Both the position numbers and the translations under genes were made by a program. The notes beneath the pieces are model-generated. The model was not told where the DNA came from and ran no database searches. It worked only from the letters and a program-made list of their open reading frames with translations. DNA of 64,000 bases. Source: Clostridia bacterium. GTDB lineage: Bacteria; Bacillota; Clostridia; UBA1381. Shown in pieces: positions 14,866-62,980 of this stretch. Each line of letters starts with the position of its first letter. Positions within the stretch are counted from its first letter, which is position 1. The stretch spans positions 1-64,000 of the forward strand of contig JAFSXU010000060.1 of the NCBI GenBank assembly GCA_017443895.1, given 5' to 3'.

Positions 14866-17800
14866 ATGGAAATCAATATGATAAGTTATAAAAGATGCCT
14901 CAGCACTCTGCTTGCATCTTCAATACTCATATCCCTTTTTGCAATACCGTCCGTATCGGTTTGTGCAGCTGAAAGTATGCAGGCATACAGCGGTAACGGT
15001 GTTATAGAGGCTCAGGGAAGTATAAGCGGTGCGGCAAACAAAAATTATATAATGGCTGTGCGCAGTGACTCAGATGCTTCAATAACGGACGGTAATATAG
15101 ATGATATAATAATCGGGTGGGAACAGTCTGTAACGGATAATGACGGCGGTTTTTTGGCAGTAATCCCTATAGCGGCAGATATACCATCGGGATATTACAG
15201 AGTAGAGCTTACCCTTGCAGGAAGTGATGAGATAAACGCATCGTCAGACTGTTATTATATGAGCAGTGCTGACGCTGCGTCATTGCTACAACAGTTTAAG
15301 AATGCATCCGGCACAGGTGAAATAAACTCATTCATAGATACCAATGAAGAAATATTGAGTATAGATAAAAGTGCCATATATCAGGGACTTAAAGTAAAAT
15401 CCAAGGTATATGAAAAAATGCTGTATCAGAAAGGTATAAATAGATATACCGCTGTTTCGGATATTGCAAAAAGTTTTAATGAGAGCTGTATTCTCGAAAA
15501 GCTTGCCGAAGCTGACGGTGAAAATGAATATCTTAATGTGCTAAATAGCTATCAGACAAGTCTTGGAATAGATCTATCTGCACTTAATTCTTTTGACAGC
15601 CCAGTTAAGGTGGCTGAGATTCTTATGCTTACAGATTACAGTTCAAGACAGGCGCTTGAGGATAAACTGCCCGAGGCAATATGTGTTGCCTCATTTAATG
15701 CTTGCTCAAGATCGGATGCGGCGGAGCTTATAAGTAAGTACATTGCAAATCTGAATATATCCTCTGCTTATGGCTCTCTTGGCTCATCTGCAAGAGCGGA
15801 GCTTTACAAGAGCTTAGAAACGCACACAAGTTTCAAAAGCTATTTGGATATTTCTGCATTTATAAATAATCATATATCCTCCGCTTCCAAGGGAACAGTA
15901 AGCTCAGGCGGCGGCGGTACAGGTGGCAGTGTAAACACGAATTTTCAGGCATTGCCCCAAGATACCCAAGCTATACAGACTCCACAGCCCCAGACCGATA
16001 CGGAACAAGAGGGCTTTACAGATATGGATACTGCCGCATGGGCTATCCCGGCGGTTGATTATCTGGCGGCAAAGGGGATAGTGGCAGGAATAAGCCAGAG
16101 CAAGTTTGCCCCCAACAGAAACATAACCCGAGAGGAATTTACCGCACTTCTTATACGAGCTATAGGTATACCCGACAGCACAAAAGCACTTTCGTTTAAG
16201 GACACGGATAATGATGAATGGTATGCGCCGTATATTCGTGCGGCGTTAAGTGCCGGTATTGTAAACGGCATATCAGATACATGGTTTGGAGTAGGAGAGC
16301 CGATAACAAGGCAGGATATGGCTCTTATGCTAAGCAATGCCATAACATCGCAGAATATAGAGCTTGCCCAAAACGGTTCAGTGCCGGATTTCGCCGATAA
16401 GAATGCCATTTCCGATTATGCTGTGGAAGCAGTGGAAAGGCTTTGCTTATGCGGAATAATGAACGGTGTGAGCGATACTGAGTTTGCGCCGCATGCAAAT
16501 GCGACAAGGGCAATGGCGGCAAAGGTTTTATACTCTGTGCTTCTGCCAAAGACATCATCTGCGACAGTAAACGAGAATGTTGAGACGGCGGATTTTGCGC
16601 TCCAGGTGGGGTTGCTTGTGCCGGATTCTGAAAACAATCTCGTTCTTGCCGACAAGGTGACGCGTGCTGAGTTGGCAAGGATTATATGTGTTACAATGAA
16701 TTATGATACCGGAGTCGGCACGGGCACAGGATTTCCCGATATGAGTAGCCAAGATGCCTTGTTTCCTTATGCTGTAACGGCAGTATCTATAGGAATAATG
16801 GATGCGCCCGGCGGTGCGTTCAGACCAAATGAAGAGGTAAGCGTTTATGAGCTTGTAAACGCAATGATTGGGATTTTGGGCTATAACAATATCATGGACG
16901 AGGTAACAAAGGAAACCGTATGGCAAAAGGCAGCGGAGCTGGGGCTTATGAAAGGAGCTTCCCTAAAGCCGGATATGATTCTTACAAAGGGCGCAGCTGC
17001 AATTATCTGCTACAATGCGTTTAATACGGATATGGTTCTCTGGGATACCAACGGAGGTAACACATCATATACGACAAGTAAAGATGCAACGATCTTTACG
17101 GAATACTGGGATGCTAAGAAGTCAAAAGGAATAATAACCGAAAACAACAGGACGGGACTTTCGTGGAGCACTCATTATATGAACGATATGGTAGTAATAA
17201 ACGATATAGGATATGCCGTAGGGAATACTCATGCCGATGAGCTTCTGGGTTACTATGTTGAATATTACTATTCTGAGGAGGAAAACGAACTTATTTATGT
17301 AAGGCCCACATCGAGAAACAATACGATGCGGATAAAAGCTTCCGAACTTGATAAGTTCATGTCGGATTATACAATAAAGTATTTCAAAACTGAGGATTCA
17401 AGCAGGAGTACATCAGTAAGAGTTTCGCCGGAGGCTGATATAATATATAACGATTCATCATATTTTGAGTTTGAAAAGGACGGAGGATTTAGCGCACTCG
17501 TACCTAAAACAGGGTATATAGATCTTATAGATAACAATGCAGACGGCAGATACGATGTTGTAAAAATCTATGAATACAAAAACTATTTTGTCGGAGGTAT
17601 CAACAGAGAGGATAAACAGATACGGGATAAAATACGCAGCCGTCTTGTTGATTTGGACGAGAATGAAATTGACAGGCTGGAAATCAATATATGGAATGAA
17701 AATACTCAATCTGCTTTCCCGGGAGACTTTTCGGATATAAGCAAGGGTAACACCATATCCGTTTTTGCCGATAAAGACGGTAACGGAGTATATGCTGTTG

Positions 17801-46221: not shown

Positions 46222-48069
46222 ATGAAACTAAGGAAAATTATGAGCTTGACAGCTGCACTTGCAGTGGTGATGACCTGTATCGCAACCGTCTTTACACCTG
46301 TCGCATCTGCTGAAACGGGACCAGAAGTAAATACGGAGGTTGCCTATAGCGAGAGCTTTAACAGCTATGGCAATAAAGATTATTCGAACACATTGACTGC
46401 TTTAAGAGATTATGGCTGGTATTTATCGAATCATACCCAGCTTTATACAAGTGGAAGTATTTATTCGCAAATTAACAACACATTGGCGGATATTGAGTCC
46501 AATAGGCTTAAAATTGTTTCTGCCGGCAACACTTCTGGCAACAATGTTACACCTCTTGGTTATGGCAAAACTTTCCCCGGGGTAAGTGCAAATGAGGCAG
46601 TGACGGGATCTTGGGAAATAAATTTTGATTTTGTGCCACTTTTAAACGGTGGTAAGGCTCAATTTGCATTTACTTTGAATGCGGCGGATGGTTCAGCCTC
46701 GGGTGCGGCAGCCGCTAATAATATTATAGCATGTAGTGGAACCACTTTCTATCTCGGTTATCATAGTTATACCGATATTGCGAGCGGGAGCGTTGCGCAA
46801 TATTCAATACCTGCTGCGGAAGTTGGTGGTCAAACTTGGTACAAGGTTAAGGTTTATTTAAACTGTGATGAGAAATATTATTCTGTAGAACTGTATAAAT
46901 CAACAGGCGAGCTTATTGCACGCAGAAGCCCGATAAGTTTGGGTACCGATACAATTAGCTTTTTAAAATTTTCAGCCCTTGGTTCAGATAAAGTGTATTC
47001 TGTATATATTGACAATGTTTCGATAGAGAAAACCGAGAGAGAAACCTTAATATATAATGAAGATTTTGAGAGCTATTCCAGTGTTACATTAGCTAAATCC
47101 GGAGTAACAACAGGTGGAGCAACTGAAGATGTGTCAGGAAATAGTTATTTTGAAGGCTATACACCATGGCGTGCATACAATTATAAAGGCAGTACGATTT
47201 GTAAGGCGTATGAGTGGGGGACTGACGCTTCCGAAGGAAATGCAGTACGGCTTACCGGCAGCCCCGGCTCGGGCTTGGTATATATGCCCGTTAAGGAAGA
47301 TTTAGTGACAGCCTCCACACAGCCTGTGCGTGGATTTTTGAAGGTGAGCTTTAAGGTTATGCCTAACAGTGTCAAAGGTACTGGACTCAATGCCTTTAAT
47401 GTATTTGTTGCCCCGACTTACGGGAGTGATTTTACAAGCTTATCGGCATTCACGATTGCAAAAAGCAATAACATAACCGCAATTATGAAAAATTCCGGCA
47501 CTCAAACGATAAGTGCTTCAAAGTGGTATAATGTTGATCTGGTATTTGATGTTGTAAACAGCAAGGTAGTCACTACCGTAACAGATATTGCCGCATCTCA
47601 GAAATTTACATTTGAAAAAACGATTAGCGATCTTAACGCTGTAAAGGGTATAATGTTTGAGTCGTTAGGCGGCGATGTTTCCGTAGATGATATAAACATA
47701 GGATATACCCCTAAGATGAAGGTTACTTCAGTAACGGTTAATGATATTGCCGCAACAAGCGCATCAGATTTCTTTACTCACACAGGTACAACTTATGACA
47801 TTGATAGCAGTACGAATATATCAGTAGAGTACAGTAATCCGACAGACGCTTCAATAAGCGGGTTTGTGGCAATAGTGTATTTTGGTGCAGATGGTAGATT
47901 TTTGTATGCTCGCCACGCAACAAAAACCGTTGAGCCCGGCGAATTGGGTACTATATCTTTCAAACCAAAAACAATAGGACTTGAGGAAGAACCACAAAAA
48001 GTCGCAATATATCTTTGGGATAGTCTTACAAACGCTAATCCGTATTATGACCCTATTGTTTTTGAATAA
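46222..48069 (+). CDS. secreted protein with two LamG-like modules
   Basis: A 615-residue exported protein. Signal peptide about 1-31 (TPVASAET), LamG-like module about 40-272 (SYGNKDYSNTL, WYKVKVYLNCDEKYYSVEL, SVYIDNVSIEK), second module about 278-495 opening ETLIYNEDFESYS and containing YFEGYTPWRA, then a C-terminal beta domain about 500-615. Modules and order match the 48123 and 56466 products, so all three are paralogs. GAAAGGGG precedes the ATG. Probable glycan-binding surface protein; no wall anchor or catalytic motif. Confidence 0.7.
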   Translation: MKLRKIMSLTAALAVVMTCIATVFTPVASAETGPEVNTEVAYSESFNSYGNKDYSNTLTALRDYGWYLSNHTQLYTSGSIYSQINNTLADIESNRLKIVSAGNTSGNNVTPLGYGKTFPGVSANEAVTGSWEINFDFVPLLNGGKAQFAFTLNAADGSASGAAAANNIIACSGTTFYLGYHSYTDIASGSVAQYSIPAAEVGGQTWYKVKVYLNCDEKYYSVELYKSTGELIARRSPISLGTDTISFLKFSALGSDKVYSVYIDNVSIEKTERETLIYNEDFESYSSVTLAKSGVTTGGATEDVSGNSYFEGYTPWRAYNYKGSTICKAYEWGTDASEGNAVRLTGSPGSGLVYMPVKEDLVTASTQPVRGFLKVSFKVMPNSVKGTGLNAFNVFVAPTYGSDFTSLSAFTIAKSNNITAIMKNSGTQTISASKWYNVDLVFDVVNSKVVTTVTDIAASQKFTFEKTISDLNAVKGIMFESLGGDVSVDDINIGYTPKMKVTSVTVNDIAATSASDFFTHTGTTYDIDSSTNISVEYSNPTDASISGFVAIVYFGADGRFLYARHATKTVEPGELGTISFKPKTIGLEEEPQKVAIYLWDSLTNANPYYDPIVFE

Positions 48070-48122
48070 CTAATAGAGTTTATCGTAAATGTGATTCAAT
48101 ATTAAAACAGGAGGTAATCAAA

Positions 48123-50315
48123 ATGAAATTGCGTAAACTTATGAGTTTAGCTGTTACGGCGGCTATGGTTATGACAAGTATGGCAATGTCGGTGCCTATG
48201 GCGTCGGCGGAAACGAACCCCGAAACATACACATTCACCGAGGATTTTGAGGGAATGCCAATTACAAACAGTTCAAATGCCGCAGCTACAATGGATGCAT
48301 TATTTGGCGACGGCTGGTATCCGGTAACAAACAACTATGCTTATGCAAGTGTTGATACTACTCAGTCCATTTACCAGTTTGCGGCGGTTATGGGCGATGA
48401 CACAAACCATTATTTAAGAATTATTACACCCGGCAGTAGTACGGCAAACTACAAATACGGTCTTGGACGGCCGTTCCCCGGTCAGGGTGCAAATGCAAGA
48501 GGCATTTGGGAGATAAACTTTAAGTTTAAACCTTATAAGGCAGCAAACGGTGCACAGTTTAATTTTGGCTTAAACACGCTTGGAGCAACTGTCGATGAAA
48601 CAGTCGCTCAGCATAACATTCTTTCAGCATATGCAAACAAGATGTATTTGGGTTACCGTGACTTTATGCCTCTTTATCAGGGCGGCGGTGTTCCACAGGG
48701 CAGAATTGACAAAAACATTTCGCTTGATTGGTGGTACGATGTCAAGGTTATAGTAAACTGTGACGCTCGCTATTATTCGGTAGAATTAAAGCATGACAAC
48801 ACTGTTATGGCGCGCAGAAGTGCAATCAGCTTTTCCGGCAATGAAACAATAGGATTTTTTAAGCTGTCTGCTCTTGGAATGGGTAAGCCTTCGGCTGTAT
48901 ATGTTGATGATATTTCAATCAAACCTGCAAAAAGAGAAACTTTAATATACAATGACGATTTTGAAAGCTATTCAAATGTTGAGTTAGCTACTGCCGGTAT
49001 GGAAACCGGTGGTGAAACAGAAGATGTTTCGGGTACAAGCTACTTTGAGGGCTTTACACCTTGGCGTGCGCATAAGAGGATAGGAAATTACTATGATTTA
49101 CAGATTGATCCCGATCTTACAAGTCAGGTAGTAAGGCTTGGTGACGGTGAAACGGCAGGTTCGGGACTTGTATATATGATAGCATACGAGAAATTGTTGG
49201 AGGCAGCAACCCAAACAACCCGTGGTATGGTAAAGACGAGCTTTAAGATTAAGCCCGAAACTATCGTGGGTACAGGCGCTACGGTTAATGCCATTGCAGA
49301 CTACACACAGGATATTGCAGACAACAAGGCCGTAATATTCAGAATTCAGGACAACGAAGGTACACCTGCTCTTTTAACACCTGAAGGAAATGTCGATCTT
49401 AATTCCGAAGCATGGTACAATGTAGACCTTACATTCGATGTTATAAACCACAATATCGAAACTAAGGTAGCAGAGTATGGTACAGAAGAAGAAATTGCAA
49501 GCTTTACAAGAAATGTTTCGTCACTTACGGCTCTAAAGGGCTTAATGTTTGCCGTACCGACAGGCTCGTCTGTTTTGGCAGACGATATAAACATAGAATA
49601 TTATGCGCCTGCTCCTGTTATTGATGAGAACGGAATAGTTTTAACTGATGCATTCGGTAACGAAGTAGCGGATATAAACAGTGTTACACCTGCGCTAAAG
49701 TCAATTAAAATTCCTGTTGGCTGTACAGTAAAGCCTGAAACGGCAAGTGCCGAAACAATCAAGTTAAAAGACCAAAACGGCAATGAAGTAACATATGCTC
49801 CGTCAAGAGTTGACAATGCATACACTCTTCTTCTTGATAAGCTGCTTGCACCTAATACAACCTATACCGTAACAGTACCGAAAACTCTTGCAAATACTTT
49901 CGGTGATGAGCTGGGTGAGGACTTTACATTGACATTTAAAACAACCAATGCTTTGCCTTACCTTATGAATATAAGCGCCGTAAAGCTTGGCGGTCAGGAG
50001 GTTACGGAATTATCTCAGATCAGCGCCGGCTCAACAATAAATGTTGAAACAGAATATGCAAACAGCACCGCAGAAGCTATAGACGGAACAGTAATCGTAG
50101 TGTTCTACAGCGAGGATAAAATGGAGGCTGTGCTTACAAAGGATACAACTATAGCATCAGGCGCTTGCGGAAAAGATACGGCAACCTTTGCATTTGATGT
50201 ACCCGAGGGGCTTGATATGACAAATGTGAGCAAGGTATCGGTAATGCTTTGGGATGGATTTAGCGACATCACACCTTATTGTGGGGCGGTAGACATTCCG
50301 GCACAAGCAGAATAA
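48123..50315 (+). CDS. secreted protein with two LamG-like modules and an Ig-like domain
   Basis: A 730-residue exported protein. Signal peptide about 1-29 (MASAET), LamG-like module about 30-270, second module about 278-500 with the same ETLIYNDDFESYS opening and YFEGFTPWRA motif as its upstream paralog, a bacterial SbsA-like Ig domain about 515-610 (KPETASAETIKLKDQNGN, NTTYTVTVP), and a C-terminal beta domain about 620-730. The Ig domain is the main difference from the upstream protein and is shared with the 56466 product. AGGAGG precedes the ATG. Glycan binding is inferred. Confidence 0.7.
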   Translation: MKLRKLMSLAVTAAMVMTSMAMSVPMASAETNPETYTFTEDFEGMPITNSSNAAATMDALFGDGWYPVTNNYAYASVDTTQSIYQFAAVMGDDTNHYLRIITPGSSTANYKYGLGRPFPGQGANARGIWEINFKFKPYKAANGAQFNFGLNTLGATVDETVAQHNILSAYANKMYLGYRDFMPLYQGGGVPQGRIDKNISLDWWYDVKVIVNCDARYYSVELKHDNTVMARRSAISFSGNETIGFFKLSALGMGKPSAVYVDDISIKPAKRETLIYNDDFESYSNVELATAGMETGGETEDVSGTSYFEGFTPWRAHKRIGNYYDLQIDPDLTSQVVRLGDGETAGSGLVYMIAYEKLLEAATQTTRGMVKTSFKIKPETIVGTGATVNAIADYTQDIADNKAVIFRIQDNEGTPALLTPEGNVDLNSEAWYNVDLTFDVINHNIETKVAEYGTEEEIASFTRNVSSLTALKGLMFAVPTGSSVLADDINIEYYAPAPVIDENGIVLTDAFGNEVADINSVTPALKSIKIPVGCTVKPETASAETIKLKDQNGNEVTYAPSRVDNAYTLLLDKLLAPNTTYTVTVPKTLANTFGDELGEDFTLTFKTTNALPYLMNISAVKLGGQEVTELSQISAGSTINVETEYANSTAEAIDGTVIVVFYSEDKMEAVLTKDTTIASGACGKDTATFAFDVPEGLDMTNVSKVSVMLWDGFSDITPYCGAVDIPAQAE

Positions 50316-50350
50316 AGATATAAATTTAATTGAAAGTTAATCTGTCATAT

Positions 50351-50570
50351 GTTCGCGCATAGTGTGCGGACACAGAGGATCGTGCGACTTAATAATGAGC
50401 GTTAAGTATGGTTTTGAATTTTAAGCACCGTCTTATGCATGCCACGCCTGTTAGCGGAATTTATTTTCACACCGGTGGTTTATGCGCGCCTGCTAAGACG
50501 CACGATCCTTTTATTCCTAAAAATCACATATTATTCTACTTAACTTTACGGTCCTCTGTTAGGAAAGGAG
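50351..50570 (+). promoter_or_regulatory. structured leader with alternative pairings before the first clan-A hydrolase
   Basis: Hairpin 50351-50371 (GTTCGCGCA/TGTGCGGAC), small hairpin ACTTAA/TTAAGT at 50387-50407, and a closing stem AGGATCGTGCG (50376-50386) with CGCACGATCCT (50499-50509), followed by TTTTATT as in a terminator. ACAGAGGA (50372-50379), overlapping that stem, is also complementary to TCCTCTGT (50552-50559) directly before the ribosome site AGGAAAGGAG. The two pairings exclude each other, as in an attenuator. It matches no riboswitch class I know. Confidence 0.5.
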
Positions 50571-50580
50571 TATTGGCAAA

Positions 50581-52905
50581 ATGAAAAAAAGAATTTTAGC
50601 AATGCTGTGTGTTATGTGCATGGTTATTACAAATGTCAGTATGCTATCGGCTATCACAGCTTTGGCGGAGCAATCAGACTCACTTGTGCAGTGTGATTAT
50701 ATAACAAGTGAAAAAACGGGCAATATTTTTGCCAATACAGACGATATTTCGTTTACTCAGACTGTAAAAAATACAGCTTCGGAAACAGTTTTTTCAAAAT
50801 ACAGCTGGAATATAACCGATGAGACAGGCACTTTGGTTAAGTCATACTCATGGACAGAAACATTTAGTGCAAACGAAACGAAAAATCGTAGTATTTCAAT
50901 TGAAAATCCTAAAAAGTTCGGGATATATACAATAAATGTAAGAGAAGAAAACTACGCATCTTCAAAACCAAACAGAAAATATACAGATACATATTCAGAG
51001 GAATTTTCAGTTTGTATTTCACTTAATGCAAATAATATCGACCCTGATTTTGGATTTAACCAGGTCATGGTAAACGGCGGTGACTATAAGAGCGCCGTAC
51101 CGCTTATGAAGGGCGCAGGCGCAAAATGGCACCGTGAGAGCGTTATGTGGCAGGGCGTTGAGCCAAAGGTAAAGGGTACATATATTGATTTGGGCCCCTA
51201 CAAGGAAAAGCTCCGCCAAATAAAAGAAAGCAATATGGAAAGCCTTTGCGTGCTTACAGGTCGTAATCCGCTGTATGATAACGGAAACTGTCCTTCCTCG
51301 GATGAGGCGATAGAGGCTTTTGCCGATTTCTGCGCACATATTGCACAGGAGTTTAAGGGGATTGTAAATTATTACGAAATATGGAACGAATGGAATGCAA
51401 AAAACTTTAACCCGACGCTTGAGCCAGCCTCAACCTATGCAAAGGTTTTAAGAGCGGCATATAAGGCAATAAAGGCGGTTGATCCCAATATTGTGGTTAT
51501 AGGCTGTGACAGCGCAGGTATAGTTCCGAGTTGGATTCAGTCGGTTCTGGTATCTCCTGCCTTAAATGACGGCACCGGCAACATTTATATGGACGCCATA
51601 AGCGTACACTGCTATGATTATTCGGCGACCGATGCATTCCCCGAAGAACAGTTTATTGACGAGGTAAAAAGCCTTAAGGCATTGCTTGACACCTATAAGA
51701 TTGATATTCCCATATGGCTTAGTGAAATAGGCTTTAGTACTTACGACAATTCAAATCCGGGATTTGTTCCGGGTTGTACAAGGGAAACACAGCTAAATTC
51801 AATGGTAATGCTTCACGCAATAAATAAGGCATACGGCTTGGTTGATAAGCTGATACAGTATTGCCTGTGCGATAATGCCGACAAATCGTATATCGAGGCT
51901 AACTGGGGAGTCGTAAACTGCTGGCAGCGCGACTACACCACAAGGCCCGAGGCAAAGCTCTTGCCAAACGGCGCAAAGCCGTCATATCTCGGCGTTGCGG
52001 CAATGAATTATTTTATAGGCGGTAATTGCGACTATGTAAATATGACAAAAGACGACAGAAGCTATGAATTTGAATTTTATAACCACAATTTAGACAAGAA
52101 GGTTATTCTTGCAATAAACGGCGGTTTTAATAATATCCAAACAAAAGAGTTTAAGTTAGGCTGTACAAGTATTGATATATACGATAAATACGGAAATCTG
52201 ACAAAGCATATGGAGTCGCCTACGGGTGATTACATTGTGGACACATATTCCGATCCTATTTACATAACAGGTAATTTTACAGAGTCGGATGTGTATTATC
52301 CCGATATCAAGCTTAGTGCATCAATTGACCTTAACACTCAGAAAGTAACAATAACAGGAAAAACACATGAGCCAAACGATCCCGTTTCCGTTATGGTTGT
52401 AACCCAGGGCGAGGAGCTTAGCGCATATGATCCTGCAAGAGTAAAATACCTTGCGCAGACAGTATCGGATGCCGAGGGTAATTTTAAGATAGTCTACAGT
52501 GCCGATTCATATGACGGCGCGTATAAAATATATGCAAATTCTCAAAAACGCCGTTCAAAGGTAGTTGAGGATCTTGAATTTGTATATAATGTACCTAAGA
52601 TTGCGGTTACGAAAAACGGCACACCGCTAAGTCAAATGTCCGAGGTATCGGCAGGCGACAGGCCGATAGTAAGGCTCACGGGAGTTGAAACGACTGATAC
52701 TCAGACGCCAAAGCTAATCGTGGCACAGTATGAGGGAAATAACCTCAAAAATGTAAAAATGGTTGACGCAGTCGGCTCATTTAAAACATTGGGCGATGAA
52801 TTTTTGACAGATTTCACCGTTGTATCGGGTGCGGACAGAATAAAGCTTGTCTATTGGGATATGGACAGCCTCACACCGATGGTTGCATATTATGAAATCA
52901 AATAA
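50581..52905 (+). CDS. secreted clan-A glycoside hydrolase (GH39-like)
   Basis: A 774-residue exported enzyme. Signal peptide about 1-29 (ITALAEQ), an N-terminal beta-sandwich (about 35-150), then a (beta/alpha)8 barrel about 155-500 with acid/base Glu270 in EIWNEWN and nucleophile Glu382 in WLSEIGF, the two-glutamate pattern of retaining clan-A enzymes (GH39, GH5, GH51 and relatives). C-terminal beta domains about 510-774 may bind carbohydrate. Family is uncertain: GH39-like is my best reading. It is paralogous to the next gene, which has an extra C-terminal module. Likely an extracellular cutter of the locus 2 polysaccharide. Confidence 0.72.
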   Translation: MKKRILAMLCVMCMVITNVSMLSAITALAEQSDSLVQCDYITSEKTGNIFANTDDISFTQTVKNTASETVFSKYSWNITDETGTLVKSYSWTETFSANETKNRSISIENPKKFGIYTINVREENYASSKPNRKYTDTYSEEFSVCISLNANNIDPDFGFNQVMVNGGDYKSAVPLMKGAGAKWHRESVMWQGVEPKVKGTYIDLGPYKEKLRQIKESNMESLCVLTGRNPLYDNGNCPSSDEAIEAFADFCAHIAQEFKGIVNYYEIWNEWNAKNFNPTLEPASTYAKVLRAAYKAIKAVDPNIVVIGCDSAGIVPSWIQSVLVSPALNDGTGNIYMDAISVHCYDYSATDAFPEEQFIDEVKSLKALLDTYKIDIPIWLSEIGFSTYDNSNPGFVPGCTRETQLNSMVMLHAINKAYGLVDKLIQYCLCDNADKSYIEANWGVVNCWQRDYTTRPEAKLLPNGAKPSYLGVAAMNYFIGGNCDYVNMTKDDRSYEFEFYNHNLDKKVILAINGGFNNIQTKEFKLGCTSIDIYDKYGNLTKHMESPTGDYIVDTYSDPIYITGNFTESDVYYPDIKLSASIDLNTQKVTITGKTHEPNDPVSVMVVTQGEELSAYDPARVKYLAQTVSDAEGNFKIVYSADSYDGAYKIYANSQKRRSKVVEDLEFVYNVPKIAVTKNGTPLSQMSEVSAGDRPIVRLTGVETTDTQTPKLIVAQYEGNNLKNVKMVDAVGSFKTLGDEFLTDFTVVSGADRIKLVYWDMDSLTPMVAYYEIK

Positions 52906-52929
52906 TTATATCCTTAACAGATAATAAAA

Positions 52930-52965
52930 GCGGACAGATAGAAAAATCCGGGATTTTTCTTCCGC
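52930..52965 (+). other. intercistronic hairpin
   Basis: GCGGA (52930-52934) pairs with TCCGC (52961-52965) around an inner GAAAAATCC/GGATTTTTC stem. No clear T tract after it. It may lower or stabilise expression of the flanking hydrolase genes. Confidence 0.45.
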
Positions 52966-53002
52966 AATTATTCATTATCTAAAAGTACAAGGGGGTTTTT
53001 AC

Positions 53003-56000
53003 ATGAAGTTTTTGGAAAAAAGTATTGCGTATATCCTGGCATTGTGTATGTCGGGTATGAGCATATCAGCTTTTGCCGCCGATAATAAGCAGGAGGAGGG
53101 TGAATACTATCCAAAGGTAACACTCGGCACCTCTGTAAAAGAGGACGGACTGCGCATTATAACACAATTTACGCCGGCAACAAGGGACGGTCGTGAAGGA
53201 CTTATGTCAGGCGAAAAGGCGGGCGGTGGAAATCCCGAATATATAAATGTTGATGTAGACGATAATTATATGTACGATGTACCGCCTTTTACGGCGGTAG
53301 AGGTAAGCGTTGAATATTTTGACGACGATAGGGGTAAATTCAACCTTACATATAATACACATAACCCCGAAAGCGGTAAATATATAGCAAACAATGACAG
53401 ATACGGCGGTTCAACGCTCGTAGTCAACCTTACGGGAACACATGAGTGGCTGACCCACACATTTTACCTTGAAGACGCCAAGTTTGCAAATGAGTTAAGC
53501 GCAGCAACGGATTTCAGAGTCGGAATTTGGAGCCCGTCCATGGGTTCCTCAAACGGAGCTGTAGTTTTTGGCTCAATATCAGTTAAAAAAGTACCTATCC
53601 GCGATATTTTTAAATATAACGGACTAAAGTCACAAAAGGTGGGAAATATTTTTTCAAATACCGATGAAATAAAGGTGTATAATGACCTTAGAGTAAAAAC
53701 AAATGATTCCGTTTCATCGACAGTCAAATGGGAGGTATACGACGCTCGCAATCAACTGATTTTTGAAAAGGAAGAGGAGGCGTCATTTGAGGCAGATGAG
53801 TCCAAACAATTGGAGCTTGACATTCCAAATCCCAAGACATTCGGCATATACACCGTAAAAACTGAGATAAAATCCAAAAACAATTCCACAGGTCAGGAAT
53901 TTACCGATAACTACAGCGATGAGTTTTCCGTGTGCGATGTTGTAAAGGACGAGGACGGAAACCCAATGATGGGTTATGCATCGCAGGTTTTTCACGGAAA
54001 AGGTACTCCTGATGAGACTCCGGGGCTTATAATGCAGGCAGGAGGTACATGGGTAAGAATTGACGGTATTGCGTGGAATGAGCTTGAAAGAAGCAAGGGT
54101 GTATATACTTTCCCGACCGAAGCAAAAGAATGGGCTTTGAAGATGAAAGAGCGCGGTATAAACATTATGGGCATTTTCAAGGGCAGAGTTTCATTTTATG
54201 ATAACGGTAACAACCCGTCCTCTCCCGAGGGAATTGCCGCTTTTGCAAACTATGCCGCATATGTGGCAAACGAGTTTAAAGGTATTATCGACCAGTGGGA
54301 GGTCTGGAACGAGTGGAATATACAGAGCTTTAACCCATCGCTTGAACCGCCCGAGGTTTATGCAAAAGTCTTAAAGGCGGTTTATACGGCGGTTAAAAAG
54401 GTAAACCCAAATGCGGTTATTATCGGTCTTGATACGGCAGGTCTTCCGCATAAAAAAGCATCAACGAGCGTATATGACTGGGTAAGCCGTGTAATGGCGG
54501 CAGGCGCATACGATTATATGGACGCGGTAAGCGGTCACCATTACGACTGGGGAAAAGAGTGGGTAGATGAGACAAGGCTTATGGAGTCTGTACAGACTCT
54601 TCGTGATATTGTCGGCCAATACGGTCCTCCAAAGCCCGTTGTCATTTCGGAAATTGGCTGTGCGACCGATCATCAAGGTTCGCCGCTTTTGGAACAGCCC
54701 GGAGCACTCGCCCTTTATTACCAGGTTTTAAGGGCATACGGTCTTGCAGATTTGATGACTTACTATTGCTTGTACGACAGAGCTGACGATTCATATGTTG
54801 AGTCGAGCTGGGGCGCTGTAAACTGCTGGCAGTATGATTATAACACAAACCCCGAAGCCAAAAGGACGGCAAGCGGTGCAAAACCGTCATATTTGGCGTT
54901 AGCCGCAATGAATAATTTTACAGGCGCTACTGCCGATTTTGAAAAGGTTTTAGACAAAGACAGAGCCTATGCCATGAAATATTACAACAGGGCAATGAAT
55001 AAAAATGTTGTAACGGCATTGGCAGGCTACACCGGCGAGCAGGAGGGAAGAGCGGTAAGCTACGATTTTGGAACCAATAGTGTCGAAGTATATGATATGT
55101 ACGGAAACAAGGTTTCAGACCTTACCTCTGATGACGGAACATATACCTTCTATGTAAACAGACAGCCCATTTATATTGTAGGCGATATAAATAAATTCGA
55201 GTTTGCAAGTGAAGGAAGCGCAATCGTTACGGTAGATAAGAACGAAAAAAGCTCCATTGCAGGAGATATTGTTGAATTTACATACACAAAGCATACCGAC
55301 AAGGATTTAACACTCTCGTGCGATTTGCCAAGCACTGCCGAATTGGTAGAGCAACCCGTCTTTAACGGCAACACAGCAAATATCAGAATACGGATTTTGC
55401 GAAACGAGGGCGATGTCAGGTTTACGGTAAATGCTTTATCGAACTCGGGAGCTTTGGTATATTCACAAAATCATAAGATAGTGCTTGGCGCTCCCGTATC
55501 GGTGGAGATAACCTCAGGGCAGTTTATTCATAACTCAAACCATTGGCGTGCGGAGGTTAAAATAAAGAGCCTGTGCAGTTCTCTTACTATGGCAGGCAGT
55601 GTAAAAATCACCGCACCTGAGGAAATGCTGCCCACAGCGCAAGAGCGGAAATTTGTTTTAGAGCCGGGCAAGGATATAGTATTCTATTATCCTATCCCCG
55701 AAAAAACAATACAGAATATTATGAATGTAAGCGCAGTTGTAAACTGTGATAACGGTGAGGTAATCACCAAGGATGCGGCGCTTGACTTTACATCGGCGGC
55801 GTATACCAAAACCCCGCCAAAGATTGACGGAATTTTGGAGCAGGGCGAATGGAACTCTATATGGGTAGGCGCAAATACGAAAAAGGATGTCCTGCAAATC
55901 ACGGACTGGCGCGGACCTGAGGATTTGTCGTTTGGCGGTACAATGCAATGGGACGAGGAAAACTTCTATTTGGCGGCGGTAGTAACGGACGATTACCATT

Positions 56001-56440
56001 CCGTAATATACACGCCGTCGGGCGCAAAAAATATGTGGCGTGGCGACGGTATCCAGTTTGGTATTGACGACCATCAGGAGATAAACTCCGCAGATAAAGT
56101 CCGATTTACCGAAATAGGTATTGCGCAGGTTCCTGACGAGGGAGATATTGCCTACAGGTCTAAATCCGCATATGAATTGGACATGAATGTCTGTGTGGAC
56201 AAGGCAGACCTTGTGGTTAAGCGAATGGACGGCTATACTGTTTACGAGCTTTCCATACCGTGGGCAGAACTGTTTTATGAAGGCTATGTACCCGATCCTG
56301 ACAAAGAATATCATTTCTCACTTATGGCAAATGATAACGACGGTCAGGGCAGACGGGGCTGGATTGAGTATTGCTCAGGAGTGGGCACACATAAAGATGT
56401 AACGCTGTTTGGTACGATGAAATTATTGAGTGCTAAATAG
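53003..56440 (+). CDS. secreted clan-A glycoside hydrolase with CBM9-like C-terminal domain
   Basis: A 1145-residue exported enzyme. Signal peptide about 1-25 (ISAFAAD); a carbohydrate-binding-like beta domain about 30-200; a second beta domain about 205-305 shared with the upstream paralog (KVGNIFSNTDE, NPKTFGIYTV); a (beta/alpha)8 barrel about 310-670 with acid/base Glu437 (EVWNEWN) and nucleophile Glu550 (VISEIGC); bridging beta domains; and a CBM9-like domain about 930-1145 (PPKIDGILEQGEW, WRGDGIQFGIDD, YELSIPWAEL). The paralog pair suggests division of labour on one glycan, this member carrying extra binding modules. AAGGGGG precedes the ATG. Confidence 0.75.
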   Translation: MKFLEKSIAYILALCMSGMSISAFAADNKQEEGEYYPKVTLGTSVKEDGLRIITQFTPATRDGREGLMSGEKAGGGNPEYINVDVDDNYMYDVPPFTAVEVSVEYFDDDRGKFNLTYNTHNPESGKYIANNDRYGGSTLVVNLTGTHEWLTHTFYLEDAKFANELSAATDFRVGIWSPSMGSSNGAVVFGSISVKKVPIRDIFKYNGLKSQKVGNIFSNTDEIKVYNDLRVKTNDSVSSTVKWEVYDARNQLIFEKEEEASFEADESKQLELDIPNPKTFGIYTVKTEIKSKNNSTGQEFTDNYSDEFSVCDVVKDEDGNPMMGYASQVFHGKGTPDETPGLIMQAGGTWVRIDGIAWNELERSKGVYTFPTEAKEWALKMKERGINIMGIFKGRVSFYDNGNNPSSPEGIAAFANYAAYVANEFKGIIDQWEVWNEWNIQSFNPSLEPPEVYAKVLKAVYTAVKKVNPNAVIIGLDTAGLPHKKASTSVYDWVSRVMAAGAYDYMDAVSGHHYDWGKEWVDETRLMESVQTLRDIVGQYGPPKPVVISEIGCATDHQGSPLLEQPGALALYYQVLRAYGLADLMTYYCLYDRADDSYVESSWGAVNCWQYDYNTNPEAKRTASGAKPSYLALAAMNNFTGATADFEKVLDKDRAYAMKYYNRAMNKNVVTALAGYTGEQEGRAVSYDFGTNSVEVYDMYGNKVSDLTSDDGTYTFYVNRQPIYIVGDINKFEFASEGSAIVTVDKNEKSSIAGDIVEFTYTKHTDKDLTLSCDLPSTAELVEQPVFNGNTANIRIRILRNEGDVRFTVNALSNSGALVYSQNHKIVLGAPVSVEITSGQFIHNSNHWRAEVKIKSLCSSLTMAGSVKITAPEEMLPTAQERKFVLEPGKDIVFYYPIPEKTIQNIMNVSAVVNCDNGEVITKDAALDFTSAAYTKTPPKIDGILEQGEWNSIWVGANTKKDVLQITDWRGPEDLSFGGTMQWDEENFYLAAVVTDDYHSVIYTPSGAKNMWRGDGIQFGIDDHQEINSADKVRFTEIGIAQVPDEGDIAYRSKSAYELDMNVCVDKADLVVKRMDGYTVYELSIPWAELFYEGYVPDPDKEYHFSLMANDNDGQGRRGWIEYCSGVGTHKDVTLFGTMKLLSAK

Positions 56441-56465: not shown

Positions 56466-59400
56466 ATGAGCATAAAGAAAATTATAAGCATGGTATCTGC
56501 TTTGGCTCTTGCAATGACGGGCTCGGCAGTAACCACTTTAGTATCCGCTGATGAGGATACTCAAATCGGATTTTTTGAGGACTTTGAGGGTTATGAGGAG
56601 ATAAGCGACACATATACCCTTGTTGATATAATGAACGATTTGTATGCGGACGGCTGGAGCGTTGCTACAGATAACAAGTTTACGGCGCGAAACGAGTCTG
56701 ATAAAAACCAGAAGTTTGCGCAGATTGTAAAAGACGGCGATAACAAGGTTTTGGAGCTTACAACATCAAAGGCTCTTGGCAGAATGTTAGAGCCGTCAAA
56801 TGAAACGCCGTCAGGCTCGTATGAGATTTCATTTAAGTTTAAGCCTGTTGATTTAGGCAAACCGCAAATGCTTTTTGACCTGTCTTTAAACAGCTTTAAT
56901 GAAACCACCGCTGTTGCAAAGCATAACATACTTTATTCATATAACGGTATCAAAATGGGACACCGTACAAGCAATATCGGAGTTCCGACCTCTATTGTCG
57001 GAACGGCAGAGGATGTTTGGTACGATGTTAAGTGCGTTGTAAACAACGACGGCGGTTACTATTCGGTAGAGCTTTACAAAGAAGGCGAATTTGTAGCACG
57101 CAGAGGCGGAATAAACTATGCAGGCGAGGAAAAAATAGGCTTCTTAAAACTGAGCGGATTTGGAACAACCATTTATGTTGATGATGTTTCAATAAAGCCT
57201 TGTGAGCCTGAAACCTTGATATATGAGGATAATTTTGACTCATATAAAAATGTTGTGCCGGCGTCAACCATGTTAAGCGTGGGTACAGATGTTTCCGAGG
57301 CGCAGTCAAGAGAGGGCGATTGCTTCTTTGACGGATATTCGCCATGGCGTGCGTTAAGGACATTCGGTAACACCTATGACTTGGTATATGATGAACTGCT
57401 TGAGAGTCAGGTTGTAAGATTGGGTGATGATACCGCAACTTCTGTGCAGGAGTCAACAGGTATGATTCTTATGCCGTTAGAGGGCGAGTATCTTACAAAG
57501 GACACTCAGACAAAGCGCGGTAAATTACGGCTTACATATAAATTCAAGCACTATTCCAAAAACGGCTACGCATCGGCTATTGATATTATAAGCAGTTATA
57601 ATTATAACAGTAAGTGGGATTATCCGCCACAGCTGGCAATTCAGGAAAAGGGCTTGCCCCGACCTGCGGTTGCAGGCTTGCCGTATCTTAGAACAAGCGA
57701 CGCGCCTGTTAAGATTGAGCAGTCAATGTGGTATGATGCAGAGGTTATATTTGATGTTATAAACGATGATGTAACCATTATCGTAAAAGAGAACAGCACA
57801 GGAAAAGAGATTGCACACTTTACTCACGATACAAACTGGATAAATCCGGGAGTTGCACCGACCTTTGATAAGGTAAAGGCTATTAACTTCAGAGCTATGA
57901 GCGGAAGCTCGGTGTATATTGATGATGTAAGGCTTGAATACTATATTCCAAAGCCTGAAATTTCGGGAAACCGTGTCATTATTACAGACTACAGAGACGA
58001 AAGCGTAACGGACAAAAATAATGTTCCTGCCGCAATAAAGAGCATAGAGCTCCCGTTTGATAGCGATATGACAAAGGAAAGCACAAACCCCGATACCGTT
58101 ACATTTAAGGATAATAACGGAAACAGCGTCAGCTATTCACCTGTTTACAGCTCGGGTTCATATACGATTATTCCCGACGGATTTTTAACTGCCGGAAAGA
58201 CCTATACCATTACCGTTCCCGCAACTGCTGTCAACACATTCGGGTATGAGCTTGGAAAGACCTTTGAATATTCGTTTACCGTATCATCGGAAAGCCCCGA
58301 GCTTATGACCCTGGCATCAACCTCGATTGCGTTTTTCTCAGATGTTGTAAACGGCTCGGAAATAACAGCTCAGATAGAGTATGCAAATACCTCCGATGAA
58401 GAGCTTAACGGTATGCCGTTTGTGGCATATTACGGTGATGATATGCTTTTGGCAACATCAAGTGCGAATTTGTCGCCTGTCGGCGCAGGGGAAATGGGAA
58501 AAACGACTGTTTCCTTTACAGTCCCAAGCTCCGAAAAGCTTGATATGAACAAGGTGGACAGGATTTCGGTATGTCTTTGGAAGGGCTTTAAAAATTCTGC
58601 TCCGTATTGCCGTTCAATAGATGCAACAAATAATTATGACGAGAAAGATACTACAGCTAATGCCACTTCATCAAAGCCTGTTGTTACATATTCATATAAC
58701 GACTCCGTGCTTAATATAAGCGGTAAGGCAGATGATGGCGGTAAGTATCTGACGGTTCAGATTTTAAAGCCGGGCAATACATTTGATGCAGGCGACGAGC
58801 TTACAGCCGATGCCGCCGATGATACAGTGTTCTACAGAGCGCAAGTACCTGTTAAAGACGGTGCTTATTCGCTTGATATAAGGTTTGACACTAAGGGTAA
58901 TACCGCATCAACTCTTGTAGCGGGCGATTATCCTACGGCAATGTACTTAGACGATAAAAAGCTTGATATAGACAGCGTATATTTAAGCTCGTATGCGGAT
59001 TTTGCAGATGTTTACAGTACTCTTAATTCTTCGGCAACATCTGACGACTTTGAAACCTTTAAAAATATTTTAAATACGAAGCGTTCTGCCCTTAACTTTA
59101 ACAGCAAGCTTTTAGGGGACGCTGATGTCGGAAATGAGATAAGACCGTATTTTGAATATGTAAAGAAAAATCCGTTAAATGCGCAGGATGAGGCCAACAA
59201 TGCCAAGATGTTTAACACATATGTTGTTATCGAGCAGCTTAACAGCAGTAAAATAGATAATGTCAAGGATGAAATAAGCAATTTGCTTATAAGCGATGAT
59301 GTTAAAACTCTTTGCACAAACAGTTTAACTACGAATGAAAAGGGTAAATATTTTACGAGCCTTATTTTAGGTAAAAGCATAAGCGACCCAAAACAGCTTG

Positions 59401-60287
59401 AGAGTAAAATAAAGGAAGCTATAATCCTTACAGCCGCAAAATACGGAAACGGATACGGTGAATTAAAGTCGGCGCTTGTAACCTGCGGTTTAGAAATCGG
59501 CATAAAAACACCTATATCCGATGCGGCATGCAGAAGCCTTATGGGTAAGACCTTTAAGGACAGTGCAAGCTTTAAGACTGCATATAACAGCGCTCTTTCG
59601 GCGGCACAGAACTCATCACAGTCTGTCTCCGGCGGAGGCGGCGGAGGCGGCGGAAGCACCAATAAAACACCGACAGTAGCATCTGTTCAGATGTCGGCAT
59701 CGGATTATACGCCTTCAAGCTCATTGACGCCCGTACAAAAGACCTTTAACGATATAGACAATTACGAGTGGGCAATGCCGGGAATTTTAGCACTTGCCGA
59801 CAGAAACATTATAAACGGAGTCGCCGAGGACAGATTTGACCCGTCAAGGAACATCACAAGAGAAGAATTTGCAAAAATCCTTGTCGGAGCGCTCGGAGCA
59901 TCAGATTACGCCTACAGCAATAATGTGTTCAGTGATGCCAAGGACAGCGATTGGTTTGTAAAGTATATAAATGTTGCCGCACAGCTTGGCATTGTAAAGG
60001 GCGTTGGTAACGGAGTATTCGGAACGGGCAATAACATTACAAGACAGGATATGGCGGTAATGATATATAATGCTCTAAAGTACCGAAACGCCAATATGTC
60101 AACAGGCACCTTCCGCTTTGATGATGATGCCCAGATTGCAGGCTATGCAAAGGATGCTGTCGGCGCGCTTCATGAGCTGGGTGCGATAAACGGAGTAACT
60201 GAAACTACCTTTGCACCTACAGGACTTGCAACAAGAGCGCAGGCGGCAAAGATAATATACAGCGTACTAAAAGGCTTACAAGGTTAA
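56466..60287 (+). CDS. SLH-anchored protein with LamG-like and Ig-like modules
   Basis: A 1273-residue exported protein. Signal peptide about 1-28 (LVSADED); LamG-like modules about 35-240 and 255-495 (YVDDVSIKP; CFFDGYSPWRA); Ig-like domain about 510-610; beta domain about 615-725; another beta domain about 735-850; helical region about 855-1055; Gly-rich linker SGGGGGGGGST near 1060; three SLH domains about 1090-1273 (TREEF, TRQDM, TRAQA), which hold it to the cell wall. Its first 725 residues are paralogous to the 48123 product, and residues 735-1273 match the N-terminal half of the 14866-19122 product. It is a binding protein joined to a wall anchor. GGGGAGG precedes the ATG. Confidence 0.82.
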   Translation: MSIKKIISMVSALALAMTGSAVTTLVSADEDTQIGFFEDFEGYEEISDTYTLVDIMNDLYADGWSVATDNKFTARNESDKNQKFAQIVKDGDNKVLELTTSKALGRMLEPSNETPSGSYEISFKFKPVDLGKPQMLFDLSLNSFNETTAVAKHNILYSYNGIKMGHRTSNIGVPTSIVGTAEDVWYDVKCVVNNDGGYYSVELYKEGEFVARRGGINYAGEEKIGFLKLSGFGTTIYVDDVSIKPCEPETLIYEDNFDSYKNVVPASTMLSVGTDVSEAQSREGDCFFDGYSPWRALRTFGNTYDLVYDELLESQVVRLGDDTATSVQESTGMILMPLEGEYLTKDTQTKRGKLRLTYKFKHYSKNGYASAIDIISSYNYNSKWDYPPQLAIQEKGLPRPAVAGLPYLRTSDAPVKIEQSMWYDAEVIFDVINDDVTIIVKENSTGKEIAHFTHDTNWINPGVAPTFDKVKAINFRAMSGSSVYIDDVRLEYYIPKPEISGNRVIITDYRDESVTDKNNVPAAIKSIELPFDSDMTKESTNPDTVTFKDNNGNSVSYSPVYSSGSYTIIPDGFLTAGKTYTITVPATAVNTFGYELGKTFEYSFTVSSESPELMTLASTSIAFFSDVVNGSEITAQIEYANTSDEELNGMPFVAYYGDDMLLATSSANLSPVGAGEMGKTTVSFTVPSSEKLDMNKVDRISVCLWKGFKNSAPYCRSIDATNNYDEKDTTANATSSKPVVTYSYNDSVLNISGKADDGGKYLTVQILKPGNTFDAGDELTADAADDTVFYRAQVPVKDGAYSLDIRFDTKGNTASTLVAGDYPTAMYLDDKKLDIDSVYLSSYADFADVYSTLNSSATSDDFETFKNILNTKRSALNFNSKLLGDADVGNEIRPYFEYVKKNPLNAQDEANNAKMFNTYVVIEQLNSSKIDNVKDEISNLLISDDVKTLCTNSLTTNEKGKYFTSLILGKSISDPKQLESKIKEAIILTAAKYGNGYGELKSALVTCGLEIGIKTPISDAACRSLMGKTFKDSASFKTAYNSALSAAQNSSQSVSGGGGGGGGSTNKTPTVASVQMSASDYTPSSSLTPVQKTFNDIDNYEWAMPGILALADRNIINGVAEDRFDPSRNITREEFAKILVGALGASDYAYSNNVFSDAKDSDWFVKYINVAAQLGIVKGVGNGVFGTGNNITRQDMAVMIYNALKYRNANMSTGTFRFDDDAQIAGYAKDAVGALHELGAINGVTETTFAPTGLATRAQAAKIIYSVLKGLQG

Positions 60288-60301: not shown

Positions 60302-62980
60302 ATGATTAAAATGTACAAGAAATTACTTGCAATTTTAATGGCAATCACCGTATCGTGCAGTTGTGCTGTGATGAATGTAAGCGCCGAGGGCGAGGGTGAT
60401 GTTGCGGGGGAAATTGCAAAAACCTTGACTCAGACACCGGAAGATAACATTTCTCCCCAGATACGGAAGATGATGGATGTTTTAAGAACATTCAGTATAA
60501 TACCCGACTATTACGACTATAATGTTCCGCTCACATATGAGGTACCCCGTTCTGATTTTGCGGCATCAGTTGCGAGAATGATGGGTAAAACCGCATACGG
60601 CGGTTCAGAGGTATATTTTTACGATGTGCCGAAGAACTACTGGGCATTTAATGAGATTTCAAATCTTACCCAGATGGGCATTATAAACGGAGCAGGGGAC
60701 AAGCTTTTCCATCCGAGTGACCCGATAACAAAGGGCGCTGCATATAAAATGCTCCTGTGCGCCATGGGATACAGTGGATATGCAGAGCGTATGGGCGGTT
60801 ATCCTACAGGCTACACATCAACCGCCGCACATATAAAATTATCAAGCGGTGTAAGCAGTTTGGACAAGGTTACAATGTCGGATATGCTCTATATCCTGTA
60901 TAATGCACTTACGGTAAACATCATGAAGGTAAAATCTTCAACGGGTACTGCCATGACATATGAGGTAAGCGATGATGAAACGCTCGTATCAACCTACAGG
61001 GATATTTACTATGATGAGGGCAATGTAAACGGTGCAAATTCAATCGTGATTAACGGCGGAGCTTTAAAAGATAATGCTACATTGATAGGCGCTGTGATAT
61101 ATAACAGTGAAGGCTTTAATATGATAGACTATCTTGGTGAAAAGGTTGAATTTTTCTACGAGGACAAAGGCTCATCGGACGAGAAAAAGCTTTTATGGGT
61201 AGGCTTGAGTAAAAAAGCATCTTCGGAAAAAACAAAAACCATATCCGTTGACGGTGATGCACAGCTTGATACAAACTCTTTTGTTTACACATACTACGAT
61301 GAAAAGGACAGGAAGCAAAAGATAACTCTTGATAAGAGCATATTGCTTGTATATAACGGCTCCATTGTTGATTCGGGGTATGACAGGATTTTAAATAACA
61401 AGAGATACCAAATAAAATTAGTTTCCAATAACGGCAGATATACCGTTATGATTGTAAGAGCGTATGAGGACTATGTTGTCGGTAATATAAACACAGTAGA
61501 CCGCATAATCTACGACAAAAACAGACCTCATGAGTTTATAAGCCTTAACGATGCTGATTATGATACCTTCAGCCTGAGGGTTATGGGTAATGACGAAATG
61601 CCGTTTGAGGACCTCAAGGAGGGCGCCGTTTTATCGGTTTACCGTTCAAAGGACAATAAGCATATCGAGGCATATGTAAGCTACGGTACGGTAACGGGCG
61701 AAATTGAATATATCAACACGAAAGACTACACCAAGGTTTCTATAAACGGAAATCCGTACCGTGTTGATGACAGAGTGCCAACCACCGATTATTCAACAGG
61801 TGATGATGTTACGGCATATACCGATATTTACGGTGAGATTGCCTATATCAAGGTAAATACAGGAAGCGCAAAGGGTGCGTTTTTGTTAAAAGCCATATTG
61901 GATGACAGGGAGGATGCACCGCTCGTCATAAAGCTGCTCGGCGAGGACAGCAATGTAAGCCGTATTCCTTGCGCCAAAAAGCTTATAATAGACGGAGTAA
62001 GGTATACCACCGCAAAAGATGCATATAATGCAATCCTTGCCGGAGAGAATAAGCTCACAGCGCAGTTTGCGCTTATAAAGCTTGATCAGAACGGCGAAAT
62101 AAGGGAGATAGACACTGCAACATACAATGAACAAAATGAAACCTCGAATTCATTGCAGATTGATGTTCCGTTCTGGTACGGTGGCGAAACAACCTATACG
62201 CAAAGGCTTATAAGAGCAAATGCAAACGCTGCAAGAATTGGCGAAAAGATAGTATTTGATGCAAATACAAAGGTGTTTATAGTACCTTTTGTAACGGACT
62301 ATGACAATGTGCGCGACGATGACCTTTGGGTAACCGCAGGCTCAAGACTTGCAAACGATACAGGTACCTATGCACAGAGCTATAAAACATCGGAGAATAT
62401 AGGTATTACAAAGTACTTACTGCTAAAAGGCTATGACCCCAACCGCGTAAATGCAGAAATGCCGATACTTGCTCAGGAAATAAGCCGTGGTATTGACGAG
62501 GACGGAAACCCTGTCGAGGTACTGGAGGGCTATCAGGGCGCTGCGCCTGTAAGCATAAAGGCAGATGAGAGCGTAAGCAGTCTGTTTACAAAGAGCGGAG
62601 TAATGCCCGGCGATGTTGTAACCCTGACAAAGGACAGCTACGGTCATGTTAAGGGCTGTACGGTGGTATATAACTACAGAACGGGCGAGCATAAGGCAAT
62701 ATCGGCGCTCAATGATATTGTCGGACTGTTTGCAGGCTATGCACACAGCGTTGTTGACAATGTTGTAAAGATTGGCTTTACAAGCGGTGCAGAATGTGAC
62801 TTTGCAATCAATGCCATGTCAAGACCTGTTTTGGTTTACGACACATCAAAGACAATAAATGCAATTTCAGCCGGTACAACGGGCGATATTGTTACATACT
62901 TAAACGACCCTGAAAAATGTTCAACTGTATTTATAGTAACAAACAGAATGCAGCCTCAGATGTTTATAATTTATAGGTAG
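60302..62980 (+). CDS. SLH-related secreted protein with uncharacterised module
   Basis: An 892-residue exported protein. Signal peptide about 1-29 (MNVSAEG), two diverged SLH-like units about 70-205 (FYDVPKNYWAFNEISNL, MGIINGAGDKLFHPSD), then about 690 residues with no family I recognise, including AYEDYVVGNIN, GTVTGEIEYI and a late GVMPGDVVTL block. The whole protein matches residues 575-1418 of the 14866-19122 product. A start 14 bases after the anchored protein's stop suggests the two are made together and may act as one complex. No catalytic motif seen. GGGGGG precedes the ATG. Confidence 0.75.
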   Translation: MIKMYKKLLAILMAITVSCSCAVMNVSAEGEGDVAGEIAKTLTQTPEDNISPQIRKMMDVLRTFSIIPDYYDYNVPLTYEVPRSDFAASVARMMGKTAYGGSEVYFYDVPKNYWAFNEISNLTQMGIINGAGDKLFHPSDPITKGAAYKMLLCAMGYSGYAERMGGYPTGYTSTAAHIKLSSGVSSLDKVTMSDMLYILYNALTVNIMKVKSSTGTAMTYEVSDDETLVSTYRDIYYDEGNVNGANSIVINGGALKDNATLIGAVIYNSEGFNMIDYLGEKVEFFYEDKGSSDEKKLLWVGLSKKASSEKTKTISVDGDAQLDTNSFVYTYYDEKDRKQKITLDKSILLVYNGSIVDSGYDRILNNKRYQIKLVSNNGRYTVMIVRAYEDYVVGNINTVDRIIYDKNRPHEFISLNDADYDTFSLRVMGNDEMPFEDLKEGAVLSVYRSKDNKHIEAYVSYGTVTGEIEYINTKDYTKVSINGNPYRVDDRVPTTDYSTGDDVTAYTDIYGEIAYIKVNTGSAKGAFLLKAILDDREDAPLVIKLLGEDSNVSRIPCAKKLIIDGVRYTTAKDAYNAILAGENKLTAQFALIKLDQNGEIREIDTATYNEQNETSNSLQIDVPFWYGGETTYTQRLIRANANAARIGEKIVFDANTKVFIVPFVTDYDNVRDDDLWVTAGSRLANDTGTYAQSYKTSENIGITKYLLLKGYDPNRVNAEMPILAQEISRGIDEDGNPVEVLEGYQGAAPVSIKADESVSSLFTKSGVMPGDVVTLTKDSYGHVKGCTVVYNYRTGEHKAISALNDIVGLFAGYAHSVVDNVVKIGFTSGAECDFAINAMSRPVLVYDTSKTINAISAGTTGDIVTYLNDPEKCSTVFIVTNRMQPQMFIIYR

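Follow-up and report, generated by a model that had tools for sequence, protein, structure and literature searches.

Surface layers of the SLH type are formed by proteins such as Sap and EA1 of Bacillus anthracis and SpaA of Paenibacillus alvei, in which an SLH trimer provides anchoring for a large surface module. SlpA of Clostridioides difficile is synthesised as a single polypeptide that is later split. S-layers built from two components, one for assembly and one for attachment, include SlaA/SlaB of Sulfolobus and SlpA, which is one molecule of two subunits (PMC12175726). In the PULs of Bacteroidota, the adjacent SusC/SusD pair is the hallmark of each glycan locus and occurs as tens of divergent paralogues per genome. 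The gpPULs of Roseburia and Eubacterium comprise an ABC transporter, a solute-binding protein, glycoside hydrolases and a regulator (PMC5320581). Cel5I is an SLH-anchored enzyme (PMC4976890) and, together with cellulosome anchoring proteins, exemplifies SLH-anchored display of carbohydrate-active domains. Much less is understood of how the monoderm Firmicutes of gut and rumen handle polysaccharides at their surface than of SusCD systems in Bacteroidota.

The window analyzed here, 64,000 nucleotides from the genome of a Clostridia bacterium (G000, 2.72 Mb), contains two glycan loci and three SLH proteins, P0001 to P0003 (Table 1). The C-terminal half of P0002, termed the A part, consists of a beta-sandwich, a helical domain, a Gly linker and three SLH units; the B part, which makes up all of P0003, is a degenerate SLH trimer followed by an all-beta module. 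P0001 carries both in one chain, an A part and then a B part. The first-pass annotation had described this fusion and a 14-base spacer between the genes of P0002 and P0003, and the spacer (60288-60301) and all three open reading frames lie where it placed them. Pfam recognizes SLH alone in P0001, SLH and Big_5 in P0002, and a single SLH unit in P0003; an NCBIfam search of the window proteins returned SLH-related similarity only.

Table 1. Positions of the SLH proteins, their parts and the surrounding glycan-locus genes. Coordinates refer to the window unless another sequence is named.
Feature	Position	Strand	Evidence or detail
P0001, A-B fusion, 1418 aa	14866..19122	+	ORF; A domain 34-345, SLH 383-552, B 724-1418
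A domain of P0001 (beta-sandwich and helical domain)	14965..15900	+	held-out profile score 97 bits
Canonical SLH trimer of P0001	16012..16521	+	Pfam PF00395, 3 units, E 1.3e-32; phmmer to Sap SLH
Degenerate SLH segment of P0001 (N-terminus of B part, signal peptide lost)	16558..17025	+	alignment to P0003 64-205
B module of P0001	17035..19119	+	held-out profile score 414 bits
P0002, A protein, 1273 aa, lectin-like/Ig-like region at N-terminus	56466..60287	+	
A domain of P0002	58668..59621	+	profile; AlphaFold2 model pLDDT 85
Canonical SLH trimer of P0002	59742..60248	+	PF00395 E 5e-35; Foldseek TM 0.84 to Sap SLH
P0003, B protein, 892 aa	60302..62980	+	AlphaFold2 model pLDDT 83.9
Degenerate SLH trimer of P0003, PRSD / TKGA / TMSD replacing TRxE	60434..60916	+	Foldseek to SLH trimers TM ~0.7; motif columns
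B module of P0003 (~690 aa; all-beta, probably small barrels in tandem)	60917..62977	+	held-out score 414 bits; secondary structure
Locus 1: GH43, two ABC permeases, solute-binding protein, directly 5' of P0001	10540..14852	+	Pfam
Locus 1: GH88/105-type hydrolase, GH3	33776..37060	+	Pfam
Locus 2: GH78-type rhamnosidase, GH39, CBM9-containing and other secreted proteins	44039..56440	+	Pfam
WDxL domain copies, ~105 aa	47731-48066, 49971-50300, 52591-52902, 58296-58628, 19235-19549		
Stand-alone B relative, 1014 aa	L061 7475-10519, G000 contig C10		

The collinearity of P0001 with its two split counterparts, as the first-pass annotation proposed it, holds for both non-SLH parts. In BLASTP, P0001 matched P0002 with 147 bits over the helical part and SLH, and P0003 with 110 bits (816 aa aligned, 23% identical). 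Held-out profiles were built without P0001, the A profile leaving out both A-domain fusions of the set. Against these, the P0001 A domain without SLH (residues 36-345) scored 97 bits (E 8e-28), its beta part alone 26 bits and its helical part alone 62 bits, while the best of 200 shuffles gave 6.5 bits. From a profile of P0002 and its orthologues alone, the same domain went undetected at 1 bit, so that wider family profiles were needed to prove this half of the claim. The B module of P0001 (724-1418) reached 414 bits when compared with every other B module and 85 bits when the profile held just P0003 and its four orthologues (best of 200 shuffles, 8 bits), and each third of it separately matched the full B family. 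The B module of P0003 likewise scored 414 bits with its own clade left out of the profile. SLH repeats do match among the three proteins, and a spurious resemblance created by these common repeats was one candidate explanation; it is refuted by the held-out matches of the A domain and B module, each on its own, and is to be considered improbable in the extreme. Compared segment by segment, the similarity is therefore significant across the C-terminal module and not confined to SLH.

The AlphaFold2 model of P0003 (pLDDT 83.9, 53 sequences) corrects one detail of the first reading, which had counted two diverged SLH-like units at the N-terminus: the region is SLH-like, as stated, and looks in the model like a degenerate trimer at residues ~50-205, matching the SLH trimers of SpaA and Sap in Foldseek (TM ~0.7 on target). 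Beyond it the model is all-beta, with Foldseek matches to tandem OB-type barrels that are weak and none of them convincing. No match to the B module was found in Pfam or NCBIfam, a PDB sequence search with the B profile gave nothing real, and internal repeats were not significant by profile self-comparison; the description of an uncharacterised surface module is apt. In the model of the P0002 C-terminus (pLDDT 85), a beta-sandwich leads into ~11 helices, a disordered Gly linker and a canonical SLH trimer, in agreement with the layout first read from the sequence. The A domain is equally without Pfam or NCBIfam match, and its PDB sequence search yielded nothing but chance matches to helices and Gly-Ser linkers. 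The helical domain holds ~70-aa internal repeats by profile self-comparison and had no solved relative among the top Foldseek matches. In the window, the GH39-like protein has, at 52324-52587, an A-type beta domain without the helical or SLH parts.

A-B pairs are placed in distinct glycan-degradation loci. Locus 1 clusters an ABC sugar transporter, a solute-binding protein and glycoside hydrolases in the manner of a Gram-positive PUL, and several secreted proteins, lectin-like or F5/8C, also follow P0001. Enzymes of other A-B loci include GH127 with GH38, Hepar_II_III lyases, GH20 with GH141, and GH106, and an AraC regulator is also present. A-B loci share with gpPULs the transporter, solute-binding protein, glycoside hydrolases and regulator; we know of no A-B type SLH pair in gpPULs. 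ABC permeases lie ≤8 kb away in 24 of 56 paired or fused loci versus one of 33 unpaired loci (p 2e-5). As with SusC/SusD, the pair is adjacent within each glycan locus and expanded by paralogy. Unlike SusC/SusD, A-B comprises neither a TonB-dependent barrel nor a SusD fold, the models being SLH plus beta-sandwich/helical for A and SLH plus beta barrels for B with no such Pfam families; the setting is Gram-positive and SLH-anchored, and uptake is presumably by an ABC transporter.

Front domains of A proteins include CBM4/9, F5/8C, a GDSL esterase or a weak cohesin, a form of display that recalls Cel5I and the cellulosome anchoring proteins. In contrast to those, most A proteins are just 520-600 aa long, lack a catalytic domain and are linked to the gene of a B partner. 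The searched window proteins also differ from a cellulosome scaffoldin in that Pfam found no cohesins or dockerins in them. The sole weak cohesin match belongs to the A protein of another locus (L159 4535-8305, residues 692-813), where it lies in the position of the usual beta-sandwich.

A second recurrent element is a ~105-aa "WDxL" domain (consensus ...VKVFLWDGLENMKPL...), without Pfam match, which recurs in secreted proteins of A-B loci. It is C-terminal in 62 of 95 cases and occurs in 80 of 534 ORFs of paired loci versus six of 376 ORFs of unpaired loci. A role as an A-B-specific docking tag was considered and rejected, as 41 copies occur in one genome (G060) in which no B passed the threshold; five further B-negative genomes have one or two copies each.

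The genome of the window encodes 16 full B modules and 11 A-domain matches, eight of them resembling full A domains. Mutual identity among its B modules is just ~20%, whereas the four P0003 orthologues that a scan with this single protein found in other gut/rumen MAGs are 63-80% identical, indicating that each B copy is an old, locus-specific paralogue. Each of these orthologues is preceded by an SLH protein, 1281-1324 aa long. Across ~75 loci A usually comes before B, the minimal A proteins measuring 520-600 aa, and the 50 A>B loci have a median gap of 11.5 bp, with overlap in 15. Most of the genomes sampled are MAGs, and some loci stop at contig edges. Since loci fetched via B favour the finding of pairs, a survey of four genomes was seeded with the A domain alone. 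Here 58 of 65 A-domain proteins had B directly downstream or fused, and a further six had B inside 15 kb; the chance expectation per random position is ~39 x 2500 / 3.6 Mb / 2, or roughly 1-2%. In the 58 cases the B module began, on the same strand, 1.0-2.4 kb further downstream, a distance that mostly corresponds to the SLH trimer and the N-terminal part of B.

Over 41 genomes, A and B counts correlate with a Spearman rho of 0.81 (0.78 with genome size partialled out), the B counts of two genomes being entered as at least 28. In ten of the 41, B is present without A, in one to seven copies. Unpaired SLH proteins encoded in the same genome as A-B pairs have no A domain. For some B proteins (L057, L058, L142 and L072), no A domain was detected in the partner. 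A variant architecture with the reverse order, B then an SLH protein, is seen at L056, L057, L058, L142 and L162, where the A domain of the partner is partial or not found.

In a Mantel comparison over 39 non-redundant pairs, the distances between A domains follow those between B modules with a correlation of 0.46 (p 2e-4), as against 0.19 for the A domain and the SLH trimer of its own polypeptide. Duplication of whole operons would produce such a correlation as well; what it shows is that A and B are inherited as a unit. Fused A-B proteins were found in five genomes (two in G000, and G010, G012, G013 and G017), and they account for six of the 96 B proteins in the B tree, where they stand in several places beside split relatives. 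A tree that unites the fusions in a single clade can be rejected (AU test, p = 0.009). Parsimony counts four changes on the tree and well-supported branches force at least two, so it is safe to say that the fusion arose more than once; a figure of four or more is not safe, as the branches are long.

These data bear on the possibility that A and B are operon neighbours only, linked by co-expression, and that the fusions are neutral losses of the stop codon between adjacent genes. A spacing of 4-20 bp would ease such events, and the fusions are a small minority. Fusion must, however, also delete the B signal peptide in frame, and neither the rejection of a single fusion origin, nor the closer tracking of the A domain by B than by A's own SLH trimer, nor the restriction of the A domain to B partners fits mere neighbourhood, which makes this account unlikely. 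The Rosetta-stone argument by which coupling was first predicted is strongly supported by the A-seeded pairing, the 50 adjacent loci, the correlated counts, the Mantel contrast and the repeated fusion, and A and B are very probably functionally coupled.

The relation of B to S-layers can be judged from copies that stand alone. The genome of the window encodes one such protein (locus L061), apparently outside any glycan locus. Its codon adaptation index of 0.78 (reference EF-Tu and EF-G) ranks first among 277 tested genes of the genome (mean 0.38, s.d. 0.07); this strongest bias of the tested genes makes it the main S-layer candidate and suggests that it is the major S-layer protein of this organism. 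Upstream of it, positions 3583-6483 of L061 encode a 966-aa protein without Pfam match that is highly codon-biased too. Many other genomes of the order have stand-alone B proteins of 853-884 aa whose N-terminus bears an SLH region; these form a clade with support 1.0 and are mostly among the more codon-biased genes nearby. The L061 protein groups with distant homologues outside this well-supported clade and may not be its orthologue. Its codon bias is what one would expect of a protein made in very large amounts, and it and the stand-alone clade fit the profile of a main S-layer protein. Paired B genes are mostly average in codon bias, L058 being the exception; P0003 and P0001 rank 65 and 191 of 277, and their codon usage does not point to the very high expression expected of an S-layer protein. 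Paired B is thus not bulk S-layer in default conditions.

The SLH trimer required of an S-layer protein is present in B, and the arginine of its third motif is lost in most paired copies. This residue is kept in 30 of 33 unpaired B proteins versus seven of 50 paired in A>B order, a comparison whose p value is inflated by shared descent, the unpaired set being mostly one orthologous clade. Paired B thus seems to anchor itself to the wall less fully than before; A has a canonical SLH trimer. B shares with Sap, EA1 and SpaA the combination of SLH trimer and large surface module. Its module has no detectable relation to the assembly domains of Sap and EA1: no homology to solved S-layer assembly domains was found, EA1 appearing just at a Foldseek probability of 0.03. 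Locus B copies further differ from SLH-type S-layer proteins in that they are numerous, show average codon bias and have A as a partner. On balance, descent of B as a paralogue of an S-layer protein is modestly favoured.

A and B are probably two halves of a cell-wall-anchored surface unit dedicated to one glycan-degradation locus, and the best reading is of a two-component, S-layer-like assembly per locus, in which we infer contact, a lattice and glycan handling. The canonical SLH trimer of A would likely hold the unit on the secondary cell-wall polymer, a task assigned to A rather than B because the arginine of the third SLH motif is missing from most paired B proteins. The earlier proposal of a wall-anchored assembly stands as to anchoring, given that trimer; as to assembly, we infer physical contact between A and B and regard it as likely. 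B would then be a co-opted S-layer subunit that sits in the S-layer or replaces a patch of it, for which the chances are about even. More speculatively, A, with a Gly linker that gives flexibility and N-terminal domains that vary among CBM, lectin, esterase and cohesin-like types, might display the polymer of its locus above the B patch, which would let products pass to the ABC transporter of the locus.

Like SlaA/SlaB and SlpA, A-B would combine an attachment part with an assembly part, and the fused or split state of A-B recalls the single chain of SlpA that is later split. The likeness is one of organisation, no sequence relation having been seen, and dozens of A-B pairs per genome, each in a glycan locus, have no parallel in those systems. 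Counting against the two-component assembly are the weak B-module matches to tandem OB-type barrels, unlike solved S-layer proteins, and the B partners that lack a detectable A domain or are encoded in reversed order.

OB-type barrels can bind oligosaccharides, and together with the glycan-locus context these matches lend some weight to a different account, in which the barrels of B bind oligosaccharide, A bears enzymes or CBMs, and both are wall-anchored accessories needing contact neither with each other nor with the S-layer. Homologous, highly codon-biased proteins that stand alone outside such loci are unexpected for a substrate-specific lectin, and the recurrence of fusion and the covariation of A with B suggest something beyond co-regulation; we hold this account to be rather improbable. 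The boldest form of the preferred two-component assembly, that each glycan locus builds its own S-layer patch from B as a substrate-swapped S-layer subunit paralogue and A as its wall-anchored display partner, is offered tentatively and may well not hold. If it did, A-B would be a Gram-positive functional counterpart of SusC/SusD, and S-layer composition would be tied to diet. The pairs make modular, diet-responsive S-layers testable against one uniform coat, and A with B can serve as a sequence marker by which Gram-positive glycan loci are found and their limits drawn.

A-B is a family-wide two-gene cassette whose B component is related to the likely major S-layer protein. B was found in all 41 genomes of the order sample and in 81 of 291 class genomes (28%), with up to ~40 copies per genome; a closed genome (G187, 2,757,678 bp) contains five. 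Outside the class, genomes of the phylum gave just seven weak, single-copy matches, N-terminal SLH proteins of 780-980 aa that mostly stand alone. Given these, the ancestor of B was plausibly an SLH surface protein that stood alone, and was multiplied and paired with A within a set of Clostridia families. Such an SLH pair was not found in the literature searched, on SLH, S-layers, PULs and Monoglobus, where an earlier mention as "SLH domain proteins" is possible.

Two further features of the window lie near its start. Positions 4308-5809 hold two overlapping genes whose products we take to resemble an AbiEi/AbiEii-type toxin-antitoxin pair. At 343-1893 on the minus strand, the translations of two ORFs read as a site-specific serine recombinase that is apparently broken.
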